DNA of 31,760 bases from a virus. The position numbers and the translations under genes are program-made. Below, one piece after another: positions 11,378 through 26,838 of this stretch. The notes beneath the pieces were generated by a model that was not told the DNA's origin, did no database searches, and saw only the letters and a program-made list of their open reading frames with translations. The stretch lies in the IMG/VR virus record IMGVR_UViG_3300034112_001625, positions 1-31,760 of that record; one strand, given 5' to 3'. The first letter of the stretch is position 1. Each line of letters begins with the position of its first letter.

Positions 11378-11536
11378 ATGAAAAAGGACAAAAAGGTTAA
11401 AACAATTAACGTGAGTGAAAAACTTCACATGGAGTTGAAAGATTTTTGTAATCAAAATTCTTATAAAATAAACCTTTTTGTAGAAAAATTAATTTCAAAC
11501 GCAATAAGGAGTTTAAATGAGTCAAAAACAGAATGA
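11378..11536 (+). CDS. ribbon-helix-helix protein
   Basis: A 52-residue protein. KTINVSEKLHMELKDFCNQN forms the strand and first helix, and KINLFVEKLISNAIRSL the second helix, which is the Arc/MetJ ribbon-helix-helix layout of small dimeric DNA-binding regulators. Its last 20 bases overlap the start of the GIY-YIG gene at 11517, so the two are translationally coupled and may travel as a unit. Regulation of the nuclease is a reasonable guess. The 64 bases upstream are AT-rich with no clear promoter. Confidence 0.7.
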   Translation: MKKDKKVKTINVSEKLHMELKDFCNQNSYKINLFVEKLISNAIRSLNESKTE

Positions 11537-12329
11537 AAACAATTCAAATGAAAGTAGAATTGAAAAGAAATACAATTATTTTTACAAGATTACCAATTTG
11601 ATTAACGGTAAATATTATTATGGAATCCATTCTACTGATAATTTAGATGATGGTTATATGGGAGGCGGAACTTTGGTACGCCGGGCACAAAAGAAATACG
11701 GCATTGAAAATTTTAAAAAAGAAATAATTAAACAATTTTCCACGCGAAATGAATTATCTGACTATGAGCAGAAAATCGTGACAATCGAATTAATTGAATC
11801 CGAGGAATGTTATAATGTACGAACTGGTGGAAATAGTGAACAGGTGTATAATAATGAACATCGGATTCGTAGATCACTAAAAAATACCGAATTGATGAGA
11901 AATAAAGATTTGCGAAATAGAATATCAAATACACTTAAAGGTAGAAAAATTTCACCAGAAATAATAAAAAAACGAGTATCGAGTTATACTCGTTGTGTGA
12001 AGGTTATAATTGATAATGTAGTATTTGAAACACTAAAATCGGCAGTTAATAAATTAAATATTAGTGCAAAAATAATTAAAATCCGTTGTTTGTCTAATGA
12101 ACCTGAATGGTCTGAATGGAAATTTATAAACCCAGATATTTTAGTTAATAACAAGAAACCGATGTTTAAATTGTCTTATTATTATGAAATAAACGGGGAA
12201 ACGTTTGTACATCACGACGATATAATTGAGAAATATCCTAATTTGAATTATTTTAATATACGGTATAAATGCAAATCTAATTTAGAAAAATATAAAGATT
12301 GGAAAATGATTTATTATGATTATAGCTGA
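11517..12329 (+). CDS. GIY-YIG homing endonuclease (free-standing)
   Basis: 270 residues. The nuclease domain holds NYFYKITNLINGKYYYGIHS (the GIY...YIG part, residues 20-39), DDGYMGGG, an arginine-rich helix and the likely catalytic E84 in DYEQKIV. A NUMOD3-like stretch follows at about 120-155. Two copies of a DNA-binding module (pattern I-D/N-x-x-x-F ... W-x-x-W/D-W-K-x-I) lie at about 160-204 and 222-265. It sits between the late-regulator genes and the gp5-like gene, and its last 14 bases overlap the gp5-like start. It is free-standing: no split gene or intron is visible around it. Such enzymes cut phage DNA lacking the element and spread by repair. Confidence 0.85.
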   Translation: MSQKQNENNSNESRIEKKYNYFYKITNLINGKYYYGIHSTDNLDDGYMGGGTLVRRAQKKYGIENFKKEIIKQFSTRNELSDYEQKIVTIELIESEECYNVRTGGNSEQVYNNEHRIRRSLKNTELMRNKDLRNRISNTLKGRKISPEIIKKRVSSYTRCVKVIIDNVVFETLKSAVNKLNISAKIIKIRCLSNEPEWSEWKFINPDILVNNKKPMFKLSYYYEINGETFVHHDDIIEKYPNLNYFNIRYKCKSNLEKYKDWKMIYYDYS

Positions 12330-13422: not shown

Positions 13423-13770
13423 ATGAACAAAAAAAAATTGATTGAAATGGTTAGAACAATTCTAACAGAAGTCAAAAAAGTAAATATTTCCCAACCAGTT
13501 TCAAATCTTTACATTAAAGGTTCTGGATTAGATACAAACGGAAATATGCGTATAATTGTAGGATTTCCTAATGATAGAGGATTTCCAATACAAACAAACG
13601 GAACACTGCCTGAGACTGATTATATAATTGGCCGTAAAAAACTAAGCCAACTATCTGATTCTGACTTAGAAACAATTGGTACTGAAATAACTAAATATGT
13701 GTCTAAACACGGGTCACCAAATGTTAAATCAAGATTAACAGTTTATAGTTCATATAAAGATAAATTTTAA
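13423..13770 (+). CDS. small protein with candidate capsid targeting N-terminus
   Basis: 115 residues. Residues 1-16 (MNKKKLIEMVRTILTE) match the tag shared by several unrelated proteins here, ending L-T-E before V-K-K. The body (about 99 residues) is a mixed alpha/beta domain with no recognised motif. It lies 42 bases after the gp5-like gene, and its stop directly abuts the next ATG. There is no TAnnTTTG box in the gap, so it is probably read from the gp5-like transcript. I infer a head-packaged protein. Confidence 0.75.
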   Translation: MNKKKLIEMVRTILTEVKKVNISQPVSNLYIKGSGLDTNGNMRIIVGFPNDRGFPIQTNGTLPETDYIIGRKKLSQLSDSDLETIGTEITKYVSKHGSPNVKSRLTVYSSYKDKF

Positions 13771-16712: not shown

Positions 16713-17180
16713 TTGCCAGTAAAATATTATCCAGAAGATCAGGTTGACAGCGGATTTGTAGGAATCAAGTTTCCGACAAACGGCAATGGAACATCGAATG
16801 GTGGCTTTTTTAATATGTCAAGGTCAACAGAAGAACAAGCCGTTACCAATTATATTAATTTGTTGCTAACCAAAAAAGGTGAGCGTTATATGCAGCCTAA
16901 TTATGGTATAGGACTTCAATTTAGATTATTCCAACCAAATACTTTGGCGTTGAGGTCGGAAATCGAATTTGAAATTTATCAACAAGCAGCCATTTGGCTT
17001 CCTTATATTAGAAATCATAATATTCAAGTTTTAGAATCCGCTCGTGGTGTTGGAAATGGTGGAACTGATAGTGAAAATTCAATCCAGATCATCATAACAT
17101 TTTCGGTTACTGAATCTGGCGCAAATAAACAAATAACTCTTTTTCAAAATCAGGGAAGAGTTAGTTATATAATTGAGTAA
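16713..17180 (+). CDS. gp25: gp25-like baseplate wedge protein
   Basis: 155 residues, started at a TTG preceded by AAGGAAATA; no ATG is available near the domain start. The diagnostic part is EEQAVTNYINLLLTKKGERY followed by MQPNYGIGLQFRLFQPN: the L-L-x-T-x-x-G-E-R-x-x-x-P-x-x-G form of the T4 gp25 / phage P2 W family. In T4, gp25 is a sheath-initiating wedge component whose conserved E-P-R-like core contacts gp6 and gp53. The C-terminus ends FQNQGRVSYIIE, a sequence repeated at the end of the next gene. Confidence 0.85.
   Translation: MPVKYYPEDQVDSGFVGIKFPTNGNGTSNGGFFNMSRSTEEQAVTNYINLLLTKKGERYMQPNYGIGLQFRLFQPNTLALRSEIEFEIYQQAAIWLPYIRNHNIQVLESARGVGNGGTDSENSIQIIITFSVTESGANKQITLFQNQGRVSYIIE
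17141..17180 (+). repeat. 3' end of gp25-like gene, copy 1 of a 40-base direct repeat
   Basis: It matches 17801-17840 at 35 of 40 positions in the same register, including the stop codon. Both copies encode FQNQ-x-RVSYI-x-E and stop. Four of the five mismatches that I can place are at third codon positions or are conservative, so both copies look translated and selected. Confidence 0.8.
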
Positions 17181-17183
17181 TAA

Positions 17184-17840
17184 ATGCCTTATTTAAATTC
17201 AAACATCCCGGTCATTGACTGTTTTTTCAGAAATGAATATTTGTACAATCACACCAAAGGACATGGTGAGTTTACAAAATGCAATGCTCATTCTGTCGCA
17301 AGTATAGAATCAAGAACTCTTCTTTTTGAAGTTTTTCTTGAAAATGGTGTCAACTGGACAAGACGACCAATTACATCGTTTTGCTGGAAAGAAGATGCTC
17401 CGGTTCATTCTCTTGAAGAACATATATACTGGGACTGTTTCAGTTATTACATTGATGTAAACATTAGACATAGACTTCAAGGTTTAAGTGCTGATCTATT
17501 GTCAATTAGTAATAAAAAGTATTCCGGTGAATACTTATTTACGATAGACTGGGCGCATGAAAATAATATGATGACAAATGTTTCTTTTGCAGAAACTGCG
17601 GAACATAAATGCGCTCATATATTCAAAGTTGATGACGGAAATTTCTTTGCATATCCTAACAATAGGATAGTTTGGAAAGATCGAGCATTTACTGAAAATC
17701 GAATAACATCAAATCCGGGATATATTATAGATAGTAATCTATATTCCGTTGAAGGGAAAACATATTATGAAACGGATGATAAATATCAAACAAACTATTC
17801 TTTTCAAAATCAAGAAAGAGTTAGTTATATAGTCGAATAA
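17184..17840 (+). CDS. conserved phage protein inserted after gp25, carrying a copied gp25 C-terminus
   Basis: 218 residues. The N-terminal part (VIDCFFRNEYLYNHTKGHGE, ESRTLLFEVFLENG, PITSFCWKED, YWDCFSYYIDV, EYLFTIDWAH) resembles a conserved hypothetical protein that I recall from phages and bacteria; no function is known to me. Several Cys and His residues (C13, C33 and others) could bind metal, but no standard finger is seen. The last 13 residues copy the end of gp25, which is unrelated to the rest of the protein. The gene therefore appears to have been inserted at the 3' end of gp25 with the end of gp25 duplicated. Confidence 0.7.
   Translation: MPYLNSNIPVIDCFFRNEYLYNHTKGHGEFTKCNAHSVASIESRTLLFEVFLENGVNWTRRPITSFCWKEDAPVHSLEEHIYWDCFSYYIDVNIRHRLQGLSADLLSISNKKYSGEYLFTIDWAHENNMMTNVSFAETAEHKCAHIFKVDDGNFFAYPNNRIVWKDRAFTENRITSNPGYIIDSNLYSVEGKTYYETDDKYQTNYSFQNQERVSYIVE
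17801..17840 (+). repeat. copy 2 of the gp25 3'-end direct repeat
   Basis: This is the 3' end of the gene at 17184, in frame and sharing its stop with the repeat. See the copy at 17141-17180. The two copies bound one 660-base unit. Confidence 0.8.
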
Positions 17841-17860
17841 GTTAACCAAGTGTTAATGAA

Positions 17861-17892
17861 TTTGGATAATATTTTTAAACCTTTTACCTTTG
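17861..17892 (+). promoter_or_regulatory. Bacteroidota-type promoter of a tag cassette
   Basis: TTTG at 17861-17864 and TACCTTTG at 17885-17892, 24 bases apart and 13 bases before the ATG at 17906. The stretch from about 17852 through the tag codons is nearly identical to 26487-26560. Confidence 0.75.
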
Positions 17893-17905
17893 TGGAGTAA
17901 AAAAC

Positions 17906-18248
17906 ATGAACAAAAAAAAAACTAACAGAAATGATTAAACAAGTTTTAACTGAATCTCGTAAATATTCTGACTTTGTAAAAAAACTCGGAGTAAATGTAA
18001 ATTCAATCCCAGAAGACGGTCAGTATCATGATATTAAAACTATTGATATTGACCCAAATACGTTGGGATTATTTGCACCCGCAATTGAAAAAATGAGTTT
18101 AAGAGCGAGGGGAGGATGGCATCCAAAACGTTCAATTTTTGAATTAGTTTTGGATTACAAATACGAACATCCGTCAGGTTCAAATGGGTATAGTGCAAAA
18201 TTATATAGTAAAGATAATGGAAAAACTTGGGTTACAAAATATTGGTAG
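17906..18248 (+). CDS. tagged small protein broken by a one-base slip in a poly-A run
   Basis: The ATG at 17906 stands in the conserved promoter/leader cassette, but after AAC a run of ten A (17912-17921) puts the frame out, and it stops after ten codons. With nine A, as in the sister gene at 26542, it reads MNKKKLTEMIKQVLTE and joins the long frame that is open to 18248. The full product would be 113 residues. As the sequence stands, only an internal ATG at 17931 gives the body, without a tag. The body (VNSIPEDGQYHDIKTIDIDP ... YSAKLYSKDNGKTWVTKYW) is not recognised. Sequencing error, slippage at the A run, or a real mutation are all possible. Confidence 0.65.
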
Positions 18249-18257
18249 GAATAAAAC

Positions 18258-20144
18258 TTGGCAAATGTAGGAAACAATTATAAACGGGAAGTTAAATACA
18301 TCCAGCGTGATTTTGCTCAAAACAGACTTGCGTTGGTAAATTTCTTAAAAACATACTTCCCCGATCAATTCGGCGATTTTAATGAATCAAGTCCTCAAAT
18401 GGGGTTGATTGAGGCTGTTTCCTATATAGGAGATAGTCTTTCCTTTTATACGGATGTTCAATTAGCGGAATCGCTTTTGTACCATGCGGAAGAAAGAGTC
18501 AACTTATTGAATTTGGCTCAAAGTTTAGGTTATAAACCAAGAACAACCGTCCCCGCAAGCGTTGAATTGGAAGTATTTCAATTGGTTCCAAGTGTAGGTT
18601 CAGGTAATGCAACTAAACCTGATTTTAGATATGCTCTTTACATTGAACCTCAAATGCAGGTTAGTACAACTGATACTGACGCAATTTACTTTTACACCAA
18701 GGATGCAGTCGATTTTAGATATAGTTCAAGTTATGACCCAACTACGGTAACCGCCTATTCAGTTCTTCCAACAGGTGAAATTGAATATTATCTTTTGAAG
18801 AAAAAGGTTAAAGCAGTTTCAGGTCAAATCCAAACAAGAACTTTTTCGTTTACTGAACCCAAGCAATACGATAAAATTGTCATTCCTGAAACCAATATAA
18901 CTGAAATTGTATCAGTTAGGGATTCAGATAATAACGTTTGGACTGAGGTTCCTTATTTAGCACAAGATACAATTCCAGTAGCAATTAGAAATACGCCTTA
19001 TAACGACCAAGTTCTAAGTCAATATAGGGATTCGACTCCATATATTCTTGCCTACAAGCAAACGGAACATAGGTTTGTAACACGACTTCGTAAAGATGAT
19101 TTCTTGGAAATTCAATTTGGCGGAGGTATGAGTTCGGAGGCTGATGAAGAAATACTTCCAAATCCAATGAATGTTGGGTTAGGGTTAGATTATTTTGAAA
19201 GAGTTGGAGATTTATCAATCGATCCGATGAATTTCCTATATACGAAAACGTATGGTTCAGCACCTCAAAATACAACTTTAACAATCCAATATTCCACTTC
19301 AAATGGTTTGGCTGAAAACGTCAATGCAAATACCCTAACGAGAATCGTTTCAAATACCATTGCAAATCCATTTGATATTGTCGACCAAACTGTTTATCAA
19401 ACAATAGTTGATTCCTTAACTGTAAACAATCCAAATGGAGCCTACGGGGGATTAAACCGTAAACCACTTGAAAATATACGTCAAGAGGCTCTTGCTAACT
19501 TTGCAGCCCAAAATAGAGCCGTTACAAAGGAAGATTATATTCTAAGATGCTTCACAATGCCAGCCAAGTTTGGAAGTGTTTGTAAAGCATACGTTGAAAA
19601 TGATACCCAACTTGCAAATTGGGATGATTCCCGAATTCCTAATCCGTTTGCATTGAACCTTTATGTTCTTTCTTATGACGCAAATAAAAATTTTGTTACT
19701 TGTAATGAAGCCGTGAAAGAAAATTTGCGCCAATATTTGAGGCAATATCGTATATTATCTGATTCGTTGAATATTCAAGATATTTTTATTATCAATATAT
19801 CGATAGATATTGAAATTATTACTTATCCGGGAGAAAATTCCAATGAAATTAATTTGCGAGTATTGAATAAGGCCATTGAATTATTTGATAACGATAAAAT
19901 GCAAGTTAATGCCCCGATTATTATTGGTAAAATTACATCGGAACTTGATAAAATAGAGGGAGTTCAGAGCATCGCATCCATTACATTTAATAACGAAATT
20001 GATACAAATCTCGGATATAGCGGAATAGTTTATCCCATCCAAAATGCGATTAGGTCGGGAGTTTTGTATCCAAGTGTAGACGTTTGTATATTTGAAGTAA
20101 AATATCCCCGTTCAGATATTAGAGTTAGAACAATTGATATATAA
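18258..20144 (+). CDS. gp6: gp6-like baseplate wedge protein
   Basis: 628 residues from a TTG start (LANVGNNYKREVKYIQRDF). The start region YIQRDFAQNRLALVNFLKTY, FPDQFGDFNESSPQMGLIEA, SYIGDSLSFYTD and ERVNLLNLAQSLGYKPR matches the N-terminus of T4-like gp6 proteins very closely. Later parts (DFLEIQFGGGMSS, NFAAQNRAVTKEDYILRC, IEIITYPGENSNEINLRV) fit the J-like baseplate family. Gp6 dimers form the iris-like ring that links wedges and is the core of the baseplate. The gene ends KYPRSDIRVRTIDI. A diverged copy of that end lies at 21230-21274, beyond the endonuclease gene. Confidence 0.9.
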   Translation: MANVGNNYKREVKYIQRDFAQNRLALVNFLKTYFPDQFGDFNESSPQMGLIEAVSYIGDSLSFYTDVQLAESLLYHAEERVNLLNLAQSLGYKPRTTVPASVELEVFQLVPSVGSGNATKPDFRYALYIEPQMQVSTTDTDAIYFYTKDAVDFRYSSSYDPTTVTAYSVLPTGEIEYYLLKKKVKAVSGQIQTRTFSFTEPKQYDKIVIPETNITEIVSVRDSDNNVWTEVPYLAQDTIPVAIRNTPYNDQVLSQYRDSTPYILAYKQTEHRFVTRLRKDDFLEIQFGGGMSSEADEEILPNPMNVGLGLDYFERVGDLSIDPMNFLYTKTYGSAPQNTTLTIQYSTSNGLAENVNANTLTRIVSNTIANPFDIVDQTVYQTIVDSLTVNNPNGAYGGLNRKPLENIRQEALANFAAQNRAVTKEDYILRCFTMPAKFGSVCKAYVENDTQLANWDDSRIPNPFALNLYVLSYDANKNFVTCNEAVKENLRQYLRQYRILSDSLNIQDIFIINISIDIEIITYPGENSNEINLRVLNKAIELFDNDKMQVNAPIIIGKITSELDKIEGVQSIASITFNNEIDTNLGYSGIVYPIQNAIRSGVLYPSVDVCIFEVKYPRSDIRVRTIDI

Positions 20145-20157
20145 AGGGAAAAATCTA

Positions 20158-21222
20158 ATGGCAAACAAAAAGTATCATTATGTTTATAAAACTATCAACA
20201 TGATAAATGAAAAATTTTATTATGGTGTTCATTCTACAAATAAAATTGACGATAAATATATTGGCTCCGGAAAAATATTAAAAACTGCTATTAAAAAATA
20301 CGGAAGAAAATCATTTAAGAAGGAGATAATTCAAATGTTTGAATCCAGAGAAGAGGCGTTTAATTTTGAAGCAGATATCATTAAAATGGAGATGATTTCA
20401 GATGATCGTTGTTATAATTTGAAGTCGGGAGGAAGCGGTCATTCAAATTATCGCCCAATGACCGACGAACTTAAACAATATTTTAGTGAATTAAATAGAA
20501 AATACAAACATACTCCTGAAGCTATTGAAAAGATTAGAGAAGCAGGTTTGGGTAGAAAAATGTCAGAACAATGTATGATTAAACGGAAAGAATATTGGAA
20601 AAATAATCCAGATAAACTTAAAGAGCGTGGAATTAAAGTAGCTAATACCAGACGTAAAAATGGAAGTTATGGGCATAGTGAAGAAACTCGTAAATTGATA
20701 TCGCAACGAGAATTTGAATATGTGTCCAGTGGCGGCGTAAAAGCAAGACATTATGAATGTGAAATTGATGGGGTCTTTTATAAAACGATTAAACATATTT
20801 GCGAGGCGTTTAAAATAAATCGTAGAGAATGTAATAAACGACTATTATCAAATGAATACCCGAATTGGAAAATTATTAACAACCAAAAATTGAAACCTCT
20901 ATTAAAAAAAGCGGATAAACGATTTAACAAATGTATTATAGAAAATATCGAATATCAAAACATTTACGAAGCGTCAATTAAATTGAATATTGAAGCAAAT
21001 ATAATAAAAATGAGATTAAAGTCGACTGATTTTCCGGATTGGATACATATAAAACCAGAAAACGCAAGACGTGCGACCAATGGAAAACAATGTTCAATTG
21101 ATGGCGAAATATTCGAATCTGCTACATCCGCAGGTATAATATACGAAATACCCGGTTCGACAGTATTATCAAGAATAAAATCTAAAAAACTGAAATGGGA
21201 ATCTTGGAAATTTTTAGAGTAA
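20158..21222 (+). CDS. GIY-YIG homing endonuclease with three DNA-binding modules
   Basis: 354 residues from the ATG at 20158, which follows AAAGGGAAAAA; an upstream TTG inside gp6 was rejected. The nuclease domain has HYVYKTINMINEKFYYGVHS (residues 7-26), DDKYIGSGK and the likely catalytic E71 in FEADII. NUMOD3-like stretches lie at about 118-138 and 170-184. Three copies of one module (I-D/E-G/N-x-x-F/Y ... I-x-x-R-L-x-S ... P/K-x-W-x-x-I/L) lie at about 200-240, 259-298 and 311-353, matching the two modules of the enzyme at 11517. It sits 13 bases after gp6 and is followed by a copy of the gp6 3' end. Confidence 0.88.
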   Translation: MANKKYHYVYKTINMINEKFYYGVHSTNKIDDKYIGSGKILKTAIKKYGRKSFKKEIIQMFESREEAFNFEADIIKMEMISDDRCYNLKSGGSGHSNYRPMTDELKQYFSELNRKYKHTPEAIEKIREAGLGRKMSEQCMIKRKEYWKNNPDKLKERGIKVANTRRKNGSYGHSEETRKLISQREFEYVSSGGVKARHYECEIDGVFYKTIKHICEAFKINRRECNKRLLSNEYPNWKIINNQKLKPLLKKADKRFNKCIIENIEYQNIYEASIKLNIEANIIKMRLKSTDFPDWIHIKPENARRATNGKQCSIDGEIFESATSAGIIYEIPGSTVLSRIKSKKLKWESWKFLE

Positions 21223-21229
21223 TAAATTT

Positions 21230-21274
21230 AAATATCCAAAAGTAGATTTGCAGATTCGCACAATTGATGTTTAA
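21230..21274 (+). pseudogene. relic of a displaced gp6 3' end
   Basis: Fifteen codons, KYPKVDLQIRTIDV plus stop, align without gaps to the end of the intact gp6-like gene, KYPRSDIRVRTIDI plus stop (20100-20144). Eight of 14 residues are identical and most others conservative; about 29 of 45 bases match. There is no start codon or longer frame. It looks like the original 3' end of gp6, left behind when the endonuclease gene and a different allele of the gp6 end were inserted. Confidence 0.75.
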
Positions 21275-21280
21275 CAACTT

Positions 21281-21356
21281 ATTAACAACAACCAAATAAA
21301 CAACCATTTACCTTTGTGGAGTAAAAAACATGAACAAAACAAAATTATTCGAGATG
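21281..21356 (+). repeat. promoter-leader-tag cassette, copy A
   Basis: 76 bases that match 21559-21634 with three differences, all in the first 28 bases. It contains TACCTTTG (21309-21316), the leader TGGAGTAAAAAAC, the ATG at 21330 and the first nine codons (MNKTKLFEM). The upstream -33 TTTG is not present here (TTAAC occurs instead), so promoter strength may differ from the 17861 and 26497 copies. Confidence 0.8.
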
Positions 21357-21563
21357 ATTGAATCTATTCGAAAAGAACAGTCCATTAAATCTGGTTTTAC
21401 TACTCAACGTGAAGAAATTTTGAAAATTTTAAAAGATAATAATATTATCGCCAAAGTTCGTGATAATCGTGTTGACCTGAAACATGATAAAGATTTTCAG
21501 AAGACTGTTAATTTAATTCAAAAAATATATCCAAGTATCGGTATTACTTACGGATATTATTAA
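21330..21563 (+). CDS. small protein with an atypical tag
   Basis: 77 residues. The N-terminus MNKTKLFEMIESIRKE is homologous to the shared tag through residue 9, but its predicted cut site reads R-K-E instead of L-x-E, so processing is doubtful. The body (EEILKILKDNNIIAKVRDNR, VDLKHDKDFQKTVNLIQKI) looks like a small alpha/beta domain, not recognised. It may be a duplicate that has lost its cut site, or one cut at another position. Confidence 0.7.
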   Translation: MNKTKLFEMIESIRKEQSIKSGFTTQREEILKILKDNNIIAKVRDNRVDLKHDKDFQKTVNLIQKIYPSIGITYGYY

Positions 21564-21634
21564 CAATAACTAAATAAATAACCATTTACCTTTGTGGAGT
21601 AAAAAACATGAACAAAACAAAATTATTCGAGATG
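21559..21634 (+). repeat. promoter-leader-tag cassette, copy B
   Basis: The second copy of the 76-base cassette, with TACCTTTG at 21587-21594 and the ATG at 21608. It follows the end of the previous gene immediately, overlapping its last codons. Sequence similarity to copy A ends in the tag codons, and the bodies of the two proteins are unrelated. Confidence 0.8.
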
Positions 21635-21907
21635 GTTACTAAAATTTTGAATGAAACTCATAAGCCGTCAGTTGAACCGACGTTAATTTCGGACACTAAT
21701 ACGTTCAAATTTAAACCCGTCCCAAGTATGGGATATGGATTTACTGACGTTTATTATAAAGGTCAGCGGATCGCCATTATTAATGGTAGATCATCTGCTT
21801 TACAATGGGTAGCCAAAAACGGAAGTAATATTCCCAATAAGATAATTGATAAATTGGAAAATACGGTAAAACGTTGGGTTGTTCAAACATATAAAATGAA
21901 TAAATAA
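21608..21907 (+). CDS. small protein with candidate capsid targeting N-terminus
   Basis: 99 residues. The tag is MNKTKLFEMVTKILNE, ending L-N-E before T-H-K. The body begins with a proline-rich link and contains GYGFTDVYYKGQRIAIINGR, a beta-rich stretch, followed by a helical end. Not recognised. The tag is nearly identical at the DNA level to the gene before it, whereas the body is not. Confidence 0.75.
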   Translation: MNKTKLFEMVTKILNETHKPSVEPTLISDTNTFKFKPVPSMGYGFTDVYYKGQRIAIINGRSSALQWVAKNGSNIPNKIIDKLENTVKRWVVQTYKMNK

Positions 21908-25667: not shown

Positions 25668-26480
25668 ATGACAACCAAACTTGCAAATATTCAATACAGT
25701 GATTTAGCCAATAGTAACGCTACTTTGGTGAAATATGTTGTCCCCAAAGAAGGACAAACTTTTGTGTACCAACCTCAATCGCAATTGGATGCAATGTCAT
25801 ACCCACTTTCAGAAAGAAACGGGGGCGGAGCCTATGTAGTTCCAATTCAGGAAGAAAAACTTTATTTGAATTTTATCCCAAATAAAACCGTAATTTCAGA
25901 TATCAGTTTAAACAACTATTTGGAAACTGTATTTACTTATTTCATTCCTGTCGAAATTATTCCTCCTGACCCATTTTCACTTCCGGATGGAACTATTTTC
26001 AGATGCGTTTCCCAAGATTCAGTTCCAGAACCAAAAGAAAGTTATGTTTATTGGATAATTGAAGAAGGTAAAAAGAAAGTTATTCCAAATTACAAAACGT
26101 TGGAAGTGATGTTGTTTGAAAGAAACCAAAACTTACTTTCAGTCAGGATTGTTCAAGAAAATCAATGTATGGAAATTGAAGAAAACGGAGCCGTTCCTGA
26201 TAAAACTTCAAGTTGGAATGAAGATTATAAAGACCAAACCAACTTTGAATTATTGAAAGGATTAGAAAGTTCGGTTAAAAGTGGCGCGGCAATTGCAAAT
26301 GACGCAAAAGCAGCCGCAGGTGAACAAATTGCAGCCGTTAAAGCAGAAGCGGAAGCAAATAAAGCAGCCGCAGAAGCGGCAAAGGCCGAAGCGGAGGCAG
26401 CCAAAGCAGCAAGTGAACAAGCAATTGTAGAAGCGCAAGCGCAAATTGCAGCAATTCAAGCACAACAAAATAATTCATAA
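25668..26480 (+). CDS. virion protein with alanine-rich coiled-coil tail
   Basis: 270 residues. The N-terminal part (ATLVKYVVPKEGQTFVYQPQ, SYPLSERNGGGAYVVPIQEE) is beta-rich. Residues about 205-265 are built of A-E-A-x-K-A-A-type heptad-like repeats, a long alanine-rich helix or coiled coil, ending AQQNNS. Phage structural proteins with similar tails act as stalk or trimerisation elements. The low-complexity DNA (26280-26470) could allow repeat-number change. No family recognised. Confidence 0.6.
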   Translation: MTTKLANIQYSDLANSNATLVKYVVPKEGQTFVYQPQSQLDAMSYPLSERNGGGAYVVPIQEEKLYLNFIPNKTVISDISLNNYLETVFTYFIPVEIIPPDPFSLPDGTIFRCVSQDSVPEPKESYVYWIIEEGKKKVIPNYKTLEVMLFERNQNLLSVRIVQENQCMEIEENGAVPDKTSSWNEDYKDQTNFELLKGLESSVKSGAAIANDAKAAAGEQIAAVKAEAEANKAAAEAAKAEAEAAKAASEQAIVEAQAQIAAIQAQQNNS

Positions 26481-26496
26481 CAATATGTTAATGAAT

Positions 26497-26527
26497 TTTG
26501 AAAATAATTTTAAACCTTTTACCTTTG
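26497..26527 (+). promoter_or_regulatory. Bacteroidota-type promoter of a tag cassette
   Basis: TTTG at 26497-26500 and TACCTTTG at 26520-26527, 23 bases apart; the ATG at 26542 is 14 bases after the box. The region about 26487-26560 repeats 17852-17925 almost exactly. Confidence 0.75.
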
Positions 26528-26541
26528 TGGAGTAAAAAACA

Positions 26542-26838
26542 ATGAACAAAAAAAAACTAACAGAAATGATTACTAAAATTTTGAACGAAGATATTTCGGT
26601 GGGAAAATTTTATTATGACAACAGAAAAGATAAAACATTTCGAATTATATCAGTCGACGGGACTGATAGGAATGGAAATAGAAGGTTGGATAAAAAAACT
26701 GATATTGGAATTCAATATTATGATTTTAAAACAAAAAGACCTATTGGTAATATAGAAACCGTGGACAAGAGTGAATTTGATTATATGGTCAGTAAAGGTC
26801 AATGGTCTGAATGGAAACAAGATTTTTTTAGCAAGTAA
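26542..26838 (+). CDS. small protein with candidate capsid targeting N-terminus
   Basis: 98 residues. The tag is MNKKKLTEMITKILNE, ending L-N-E before D-I-S. Its A run is nine bases, which keeps the frame open, in contrast to the sister gene at 17906. The body (VGKFYYDNRKDKTFRIISVD, DIGIQYYDFKTKRPIG) is a small beta-rich domain, perhaps SH3-like, not recognised. Confidence 0.75.
   Translation: MNKKKLTEMITKILNEDISVGKFYYDNRKDKTFRIISVDGTDRNGNRRLDKKTDIGIQYYDFKTKRPIGNIETVDKSEFDYMVSKGQWSEWKQDFFSK

Follow-up and report, generated by a model that had tools for sequence, protein, structure and literature searches.

What does it mean when the last codons of a phage structural gene occur twice, once in frame at the end of the gene and once, in altered form, on the far side of a homing endonuclease gene? 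This arrangement is found in an uncultured phage with a contractile tail and T4-like baseplate genes gp25 and gp6, in the 31.8-kb stretch of DNA that was analyzed here as a whole (hereafter the window). The parts of the gp6 and gp25 loci of the window described below all lie on the + strand.

The end of gp6 occurs twice

The gp6-like baseplate wedge gene (18258–20144; 628 aa) is complete and ends in KYPRSDIRVRTIDI-stop. It matches PHROG 219 (baseplate wedge subunit) with an E-value of 6e-21, and its homologues are annotated as baseplate wedge protein. The functional 3′ end, as delimited by a codon-level alignment with the remnant, comprises 14 codons plus the stop (20100–20144) and stands, complete and in frame, 5′ of the endonuclease gene, so the original prediction correctly assigned the intact end to the copy beside the endonuclease.

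The second copy, KYPKVDLQIRTIDV-stop (21230–21274; DNA AAATATCCAAAAGTAGATTTGCAGATTCGCACAATTGATGTTTAA), starts 7 bases past the stop of the endonuclease gene, has no ATG or GTG start, and is untranslated. Its existence had been predicted with a length of 15 codons; the piece is there, but it has 14 codons plus the stop. It is identical to the gp6 end at eight of 14 residues and 29 of 45 bases, and the BLOSUM62 score of the pair is 54. Across 300 random sequences with matching dinucleotide composition, the best match to the gp6 end scored 13 on average and 27 at most. When stop-ended peptides within 5 kb 3′ of gp6 were scored against the gp6 end of their own locus (105 loci), none outside this phage exceeded 22. 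Chance as the source of the match is thereby ruled out, and the predicted displaced gp6-like end beyond the GIY-YIG gene is borne out. The prediction would have been undermined by relatives that carry the remnant without the element, and none of the 102 other gp6 loci does. A search for the exact remnant peptide across IMG/VR returned only the same phage. Two sequences, each taken from another metagenome assembly, match the window at 100% identity, and one of them covers both junctions of the insertion, which rules out an assembly artifact.

The two ends are xenologous rather than one being a decayed version of the other. The 16 differing bases (of 45) change two codons synonymously and six others mostly to conservative replacements, and they introduce neither a frameshift nor an inner stop. 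Such conservative, undecayed differences point to two functional gp6 genes as the source, not to a tandem copy that has decayed.

The intervening endonuclease gene

Between the two ends lies a gene of 354 codons from its ATG (20158–21222), with an intact reading frame that is open from a TTG at 20134. Its product matches PHROG 314 (homing endonuclease, E 6e-46) and the I-TevI DNA-binding domain of Pfam (PF20987, E 7e-14), and it is 32%–36% identical to three other phage GIY-YIG genes; Y10, Y21-Y22-G23, E71, and N87 are conserved in all four. The gene occupies its own frame past the gp6 stop, outside any intron or intein, and the window has no Rfam matches. As judged from its sequence, the enzyme is a free-standing GIY-YIG homing endonuclease. 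No recombinase or integrase was found in the insert, nor any identical core repeats (the two ends agree at 29 of 45 bases), and a scan for relatives of this exact gene recovered only the same phage.

Which of the two ends is old

The region just beyond the remnant (21275–21316), which includes a promoter-like TAnnTTTG box at 21309–21316, is the old right flank of gp6; it is common to L003, a close relative with a gp6 gene that is 96% identical in DNA to that of the window, and partly to L004, the nearest endonuclease-free relative. The last codon of the remnant, its stop, and the right flank (GTT TAA CAACTTATTAACAAC) recur exactly in L003, where the stop and flank GTTTAACAACTTATTAACAAC are equal. 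In L004, the gp6 stop and flank match those of the remnant at 17 of 21 bases, the best value among 101 loci (P ~3e-5 without counting the stop), and the TAnnTTTG box is as far from the gp6 stop there as it is from the remnant stop in the window. By comparison, the flank past the upstream gp6 copy matches L004 at seven of 21 bases. Given the flank match to L003 and L004, and the lack of one for the upstream flank, the remnant occupies the former position of the gp6 stop. In other words, a displaced, homologous gp6 end sits downstream at the old gene junction.

The bodies of the two ends give a different impression. The motif DIRVRT of the upstream end is common to L003 and close to L004 and L006, and the DLQIRTID of the remnant is unusual; overall, the upstream end is closer than the remnant to 90 of 102 relatives. 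The gp6 end of L003 likewise resembles the upstream copy and not the remnant, barring the last codon, stop, and flank. Because the upstream end is typical of the family and shared with L003, it may be the resident one. The remnant would then have traveled with the endonuclease: the duplication would have arisen in another phage, from which the cassette homed into a phage with the present upstream end, the right-hand crossover falling within the last codon, stop, and flank. That L003 links a DIRVRT-type gp6 to the same right flank fits such a history as well. It would, however, only shift the same event to an earlier host and would require a further exchange within very little shared sequence, and the remnant directly adjoins the old flank; we consider it unlikely. 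The upstream end probably came in with the endonuclease, and the remnant is probably the old end. Because no endonuclease-free allele was found in the close group searched, the sequence before insertion can only be inferred, and the 14 codons of the remnant are too few to name a donor.

It should be noted that codons ~496–628 of gp6 are far more diverged than the rest of the gene in most, although not all, pairs of relatives, which suggests frequent exchange at this end of the gene. Segment identities that might mark the whole 3′ third of the window gene as foreign must be read with this in mind, as the same segment is the more diverged one in most pairs.

Endonucleases recur at the end of gp6

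At the same gp6 end, L003 carries a 347-aa HNH-type gene instead of the GIY-YIG gene, and no remnant. The HNH-type product has a zinc-finger-like N-terminus and the motif LDHIYSI, and belongs to PHROG 5104, for which no function is given there; a scan for relatives, as done for the GIY-YIG gene, recovered only itself. The gp6 gene of L003 matches the window up to AGAGTTAGAAC and differs thereafter (TCTTGAAATTTAA), and its HNH gene ends in ...GAT ATG GTT TAA CAACTTATTAAC, so that it now finishes on what used to be the final codon, stop, and flank of gp6.

Directly past gp6, two further phages (L010 and L011) carry related HNH genes, 53%–57% identical over their length. These are short (L010, 6949–7296; L011, 6884–7174; 96–115 aa), match only the C-terminal third of the 347-aa gene, and are perhaps degraded. 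Both end in ATA TGA, followed by AACTAAAA or AATTAAAA, and at that exact position gp6 itself ends in ATA TGA in the endonuclease-free L009 and L013, a match that could be kept solely because the stop in L010 and L011 overlaps the start of the next gene. Altogether, the last codons of gp6 contain an endonuclease gene in four phages (window, L003, L010, and L011), and these genes are of two unrelated kinds.

Upstream of the insertion, the window and L003 are almost free of differences. Only two of 401 bases (19731–20131) differ up to the insertion, versus 71 of 1467 in the part of gp6 before this tract (hypergeometric p 3e-6; longest mismatch-free run, p 1e-4). Such a tract is expected from co-conversion, which may well be its source. 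Because the window and L003 carry different endonucleases, such an exchange must have predated or accompanied the replacement of one by the other.

A second duplicated end, at gp25

The gp25-like baseplate wedge gene of the window (16713–17180; Pfam GPW_gp25, E 1e-10) ends in TLFQNQGRVSYIIE-stop and has a second rebuilt 3′ end. It is followed by o218 (17184–17840), an inserted gene of the PHROG 3704 family, whose last 13–14 codons (17796–17840; YSFQNQERVSYIVE-stop) correspond to the displaced gp25 end. The gp25 end (17136–17180) and this tail agree at 36 of 45 bases (duplication score 48), and here the displaced end is fused in frame to the inserted gene. The 15 aligned o218 homologues from other phages end near residue 208 and lack the tail, and o218 is absent from the other gp25–gp6 loci (e.g., L004 and L005), which together indicate that o218 was inserted at the gp25 end and acquired the former end as a tail. 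The window and L003 have zero mismatches from ~16900 to 18042, so this stretch moved recently. No likeness of o218 to known nucleases was found; its fold model, with a pLDDT of 51 and no match in the PDB at an E-value under 0.1, is too poor to support any claim. That gp25 was duplicated without a recognized nuclease either weakens the need for endonuclease cutting or points to cargo that was co-repaired.

The gp25 case bears directly on a second alternative, namely that general illegitimate recombination produced the gp6 arrangement. Mosaic insertions often duplicate a few codons, and the endonuclease gene would then be a passenger, just as o218 produced a like duplication in the same genome, in a tract that moved recently. 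What this leaves aside is that the inserts at gp6 are endonucleases of two unrelated kinds in four phages, with HNH and GIY-YIG genes marking both kinds of insertion, and that the homogenized tract abuts the site. We rate this possibility a little below that of a remnant that traveled with the endonuclease.

Many small, unrelated genes of the window share a similar leader, either MKIKxILxE or MNKxKLxEMxxxILNE (genes at 13423, 14305, 14734, 15829, 17931, 21330, 21608, 23468, 23859, 25420, 26542, and 27264). These leaders are reminiscent of the T4 capsid-targeting leaders cut by gp21. A promoter-plus-leader stretch of ~80 bases (AACCATTTACCTTTGTGGAGTAAAAAACATGAACAAAA...) occurs in near-identical copies at 17843–17935, 21269–21362, 21557–21663, and 26478–26589. 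Such repeats are perhaps a seam for the gain and loss of small genes, of which L003 lacks the two at 21330–21907.

Duplicated ends at other phage endonucleases

To place the window among other loci, we surveyed 121 places (77 distinct flanks) at which related endonuclease genes occur in the fetched loci. Clear duplicated ends were seen in three of the distinct flanks: the window, L212, and L195. The latter two are distant phages with shorter duplicated ends, at genes other than gp6.

In L212 (IMGVR_UViG_3300044546_001199), nrdB ends in ...DEEDIF-stop (~460–480) and is followed by a GIY-YIG gene, a remnant NEDDIF-stop (~1250–1270), and nrdA; the remnant matches at 18 of 21 bases and lies a few bases past the GIY-YIG stop. 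An endonuclease gene also occupies this nrdB–nrdA position in L211 and L213, where no remnant accompanies it; the isolate Flavobacterium phage immuto has none there. In L195 (IMGVR_UViG_3300025889_015605), a direct repeat (24 of 25 bases; ~1754–1780 and ~2264–2290) flanks a GIY-YIG gene and contains the last codons of the upstream gene (LESKIL-stop) together with the first codons of the next gene. The endonuclease itself terminates in LESKIL-stop.

Seven named T4-like isolates with related endonucleases show no duplicated end. Neither does the second GIY-YIG gene of the window (11517–12329), which is intergenic, by the gp5-like gene. This second gene lies 5′ of the gp5-like gene and behind a short frame, MKKDKKVKTINVSEKLHMELKDF... 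(11380–12329 in all), and L003 has a different GIY-YIG gene at this site, past the same short frame. Other strong 3′-end repeats in the 1.8 Mb of fetched loci included several at endonuclease or tRNA repeats. The duplicated-end layout is real but uncommon.

Proposed mechanism

That a rebuilt gp6 end precedes the endonuclease gene and an old end was left behind it is well supported. As to how this came about, we think it likely that repair of a double-strand break brought a free-standing GIY-YIG gene into the 3′ end of gp6 and stranded the old end. The break in the recipient genome would have fallen within, or close to, the final codons of gp6. On the left side, repair by homology within gp6 would have copied in the endonuclease gene along with a complete gp6 end; on the right side, the incoming DNA would have been joined just 5′ of the recipient's own last 14 codons. 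These codons would have stayed as an untranslated remnant before the old intergenic flank, and gp6 would have emerged as a hybrid but intact gene, followed by the endonuclease gene and the stranded former end. In this sequence of events, the transfer would run from an endonuclease-bearing phage into the window lineage, and the rebuilt end may have lost the cut site.

Duplication of the gp6 end in place, with later divergence and still later insertion of the endonuclease gene, would give the same order of parts, but we regard it as very improbable and reject it, given that the two ends are only 64% identical in DNA when the gp6 genes of the window and L003 are 96% identical, and that an untranslated copy would have decayed, whereas the protein sequence of the remnant is conservative and undecayed.

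Implications

A wider generalization, that phage endonuclease genes, as well as some passenger genes, travel as cassettes that combine a gene end with the inserted gene, is possible, but we offer it only tentatively. If it were true, entry would extend to the coding ends of essential genes (gp6, gp25, and nrdB) and not be confined to spacers, and each entry would replace the final codons of a host protein with those of another phage. Cargo genes may take the same route, as the gp25 case suggests. Free-standing endonuclease genes of phages are usually described as lying between genes or splitting them. An end-restoring form would explain how the coding end of an essential gene can be entered without cost, and it predicts immunity to cutting by way of the swapped codons. 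The flanks of endonuclease genes would then be a record of the past ends of structural proteins. Two phages that are nearly identical but carry different endonucleases at the gp6 end make a ready pair for studying homing-site turnover.

Comparison with known systems

Some integrases have their attachment sites in the 3′ ends of tRNA or protein genes (e.g., e14 in icd). As in the window, the incoming DNA restores the interrupted 3′ end and a fragment is left at the far side. Unlike those systems, the window has no integrase and no att-type identical repeat, and its two ends are only 64% identical. The likeness to elements that restore tRNA 3′ ends, which had been drawn for this locus, holds as an analogy, and the mobile ORFs of fungal mitochondria discussed below are the closer match (PMC3630166).

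Among phages, the seg and mob genes of T4 are close counterparts, being GIY-YIG (seg-type) or HNH genes that lie in phage gene clusters and belong to no intron or intein (PMC2988022). The free-standing homing endonucleases of T4 spread with co-conversion of their flanks, and their sites are reviewed as intergenic or as splitting a coding region (nrdA of Aeh1, gene 60 of T4, and gene 43); duplicated or restored gene ends such as those of the window are not mentioned in that review (PMC2988022). In ICP1 and other phages, homing endonuclease genes mark the edges of recently exchanged DNA, as in the window, and in the parts of that account consulted we did not find restored gene ends described at such boundaries (PMC10448857). 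More generally, we found no description of restored gene ends in phages in the open-licence literature; one may exist elsewhere.

The nearest parallels are mitochondrial. In cob and atp6 of Endoconidiophora resinifera, as in the window, a gene is followed by endonuclease ORFs and a stray, partial C-terminal copy, with the differences that the setting is mitochondrial and the endonuclease ORFs are degenerate (PMC6279837). Mobile ORFs that bring a C-terminal end with them are known from atp6 of Allomyces macrogynus and from atp6, atp9, cox2, and nad3 of Glomus sp., with biochemical proof of mobility only for Allomyces (PMC3630166). In these, as in the window, an endonuclease ORF lies in the 3′ end of a gene, a complete in-frame gene end stands upstream of it, and a displaced end is found downstream; in the fungi, the gene is a hybrid with an inserted C-terminus and the displaced end is the native one. 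The DNA identity of the two ends is 64%–81% in the fungi and 64% in the window, and one Glomus case likewise involves a GIY-YIG endonuclease (PMC3630166). In the fungi, endonuclease-free relatives reveal which end is native (PMC3630166); in the window, the remnant is only probably so. The window further differs in being from a double-stranded DNA phage, in the involvement of a baseplate gene, and in the shortness of the duplicated end (only 14 codons). The layout is well known from fungal mitochondria, and its phage form appears, within the open-licence literature, to be newly described here.
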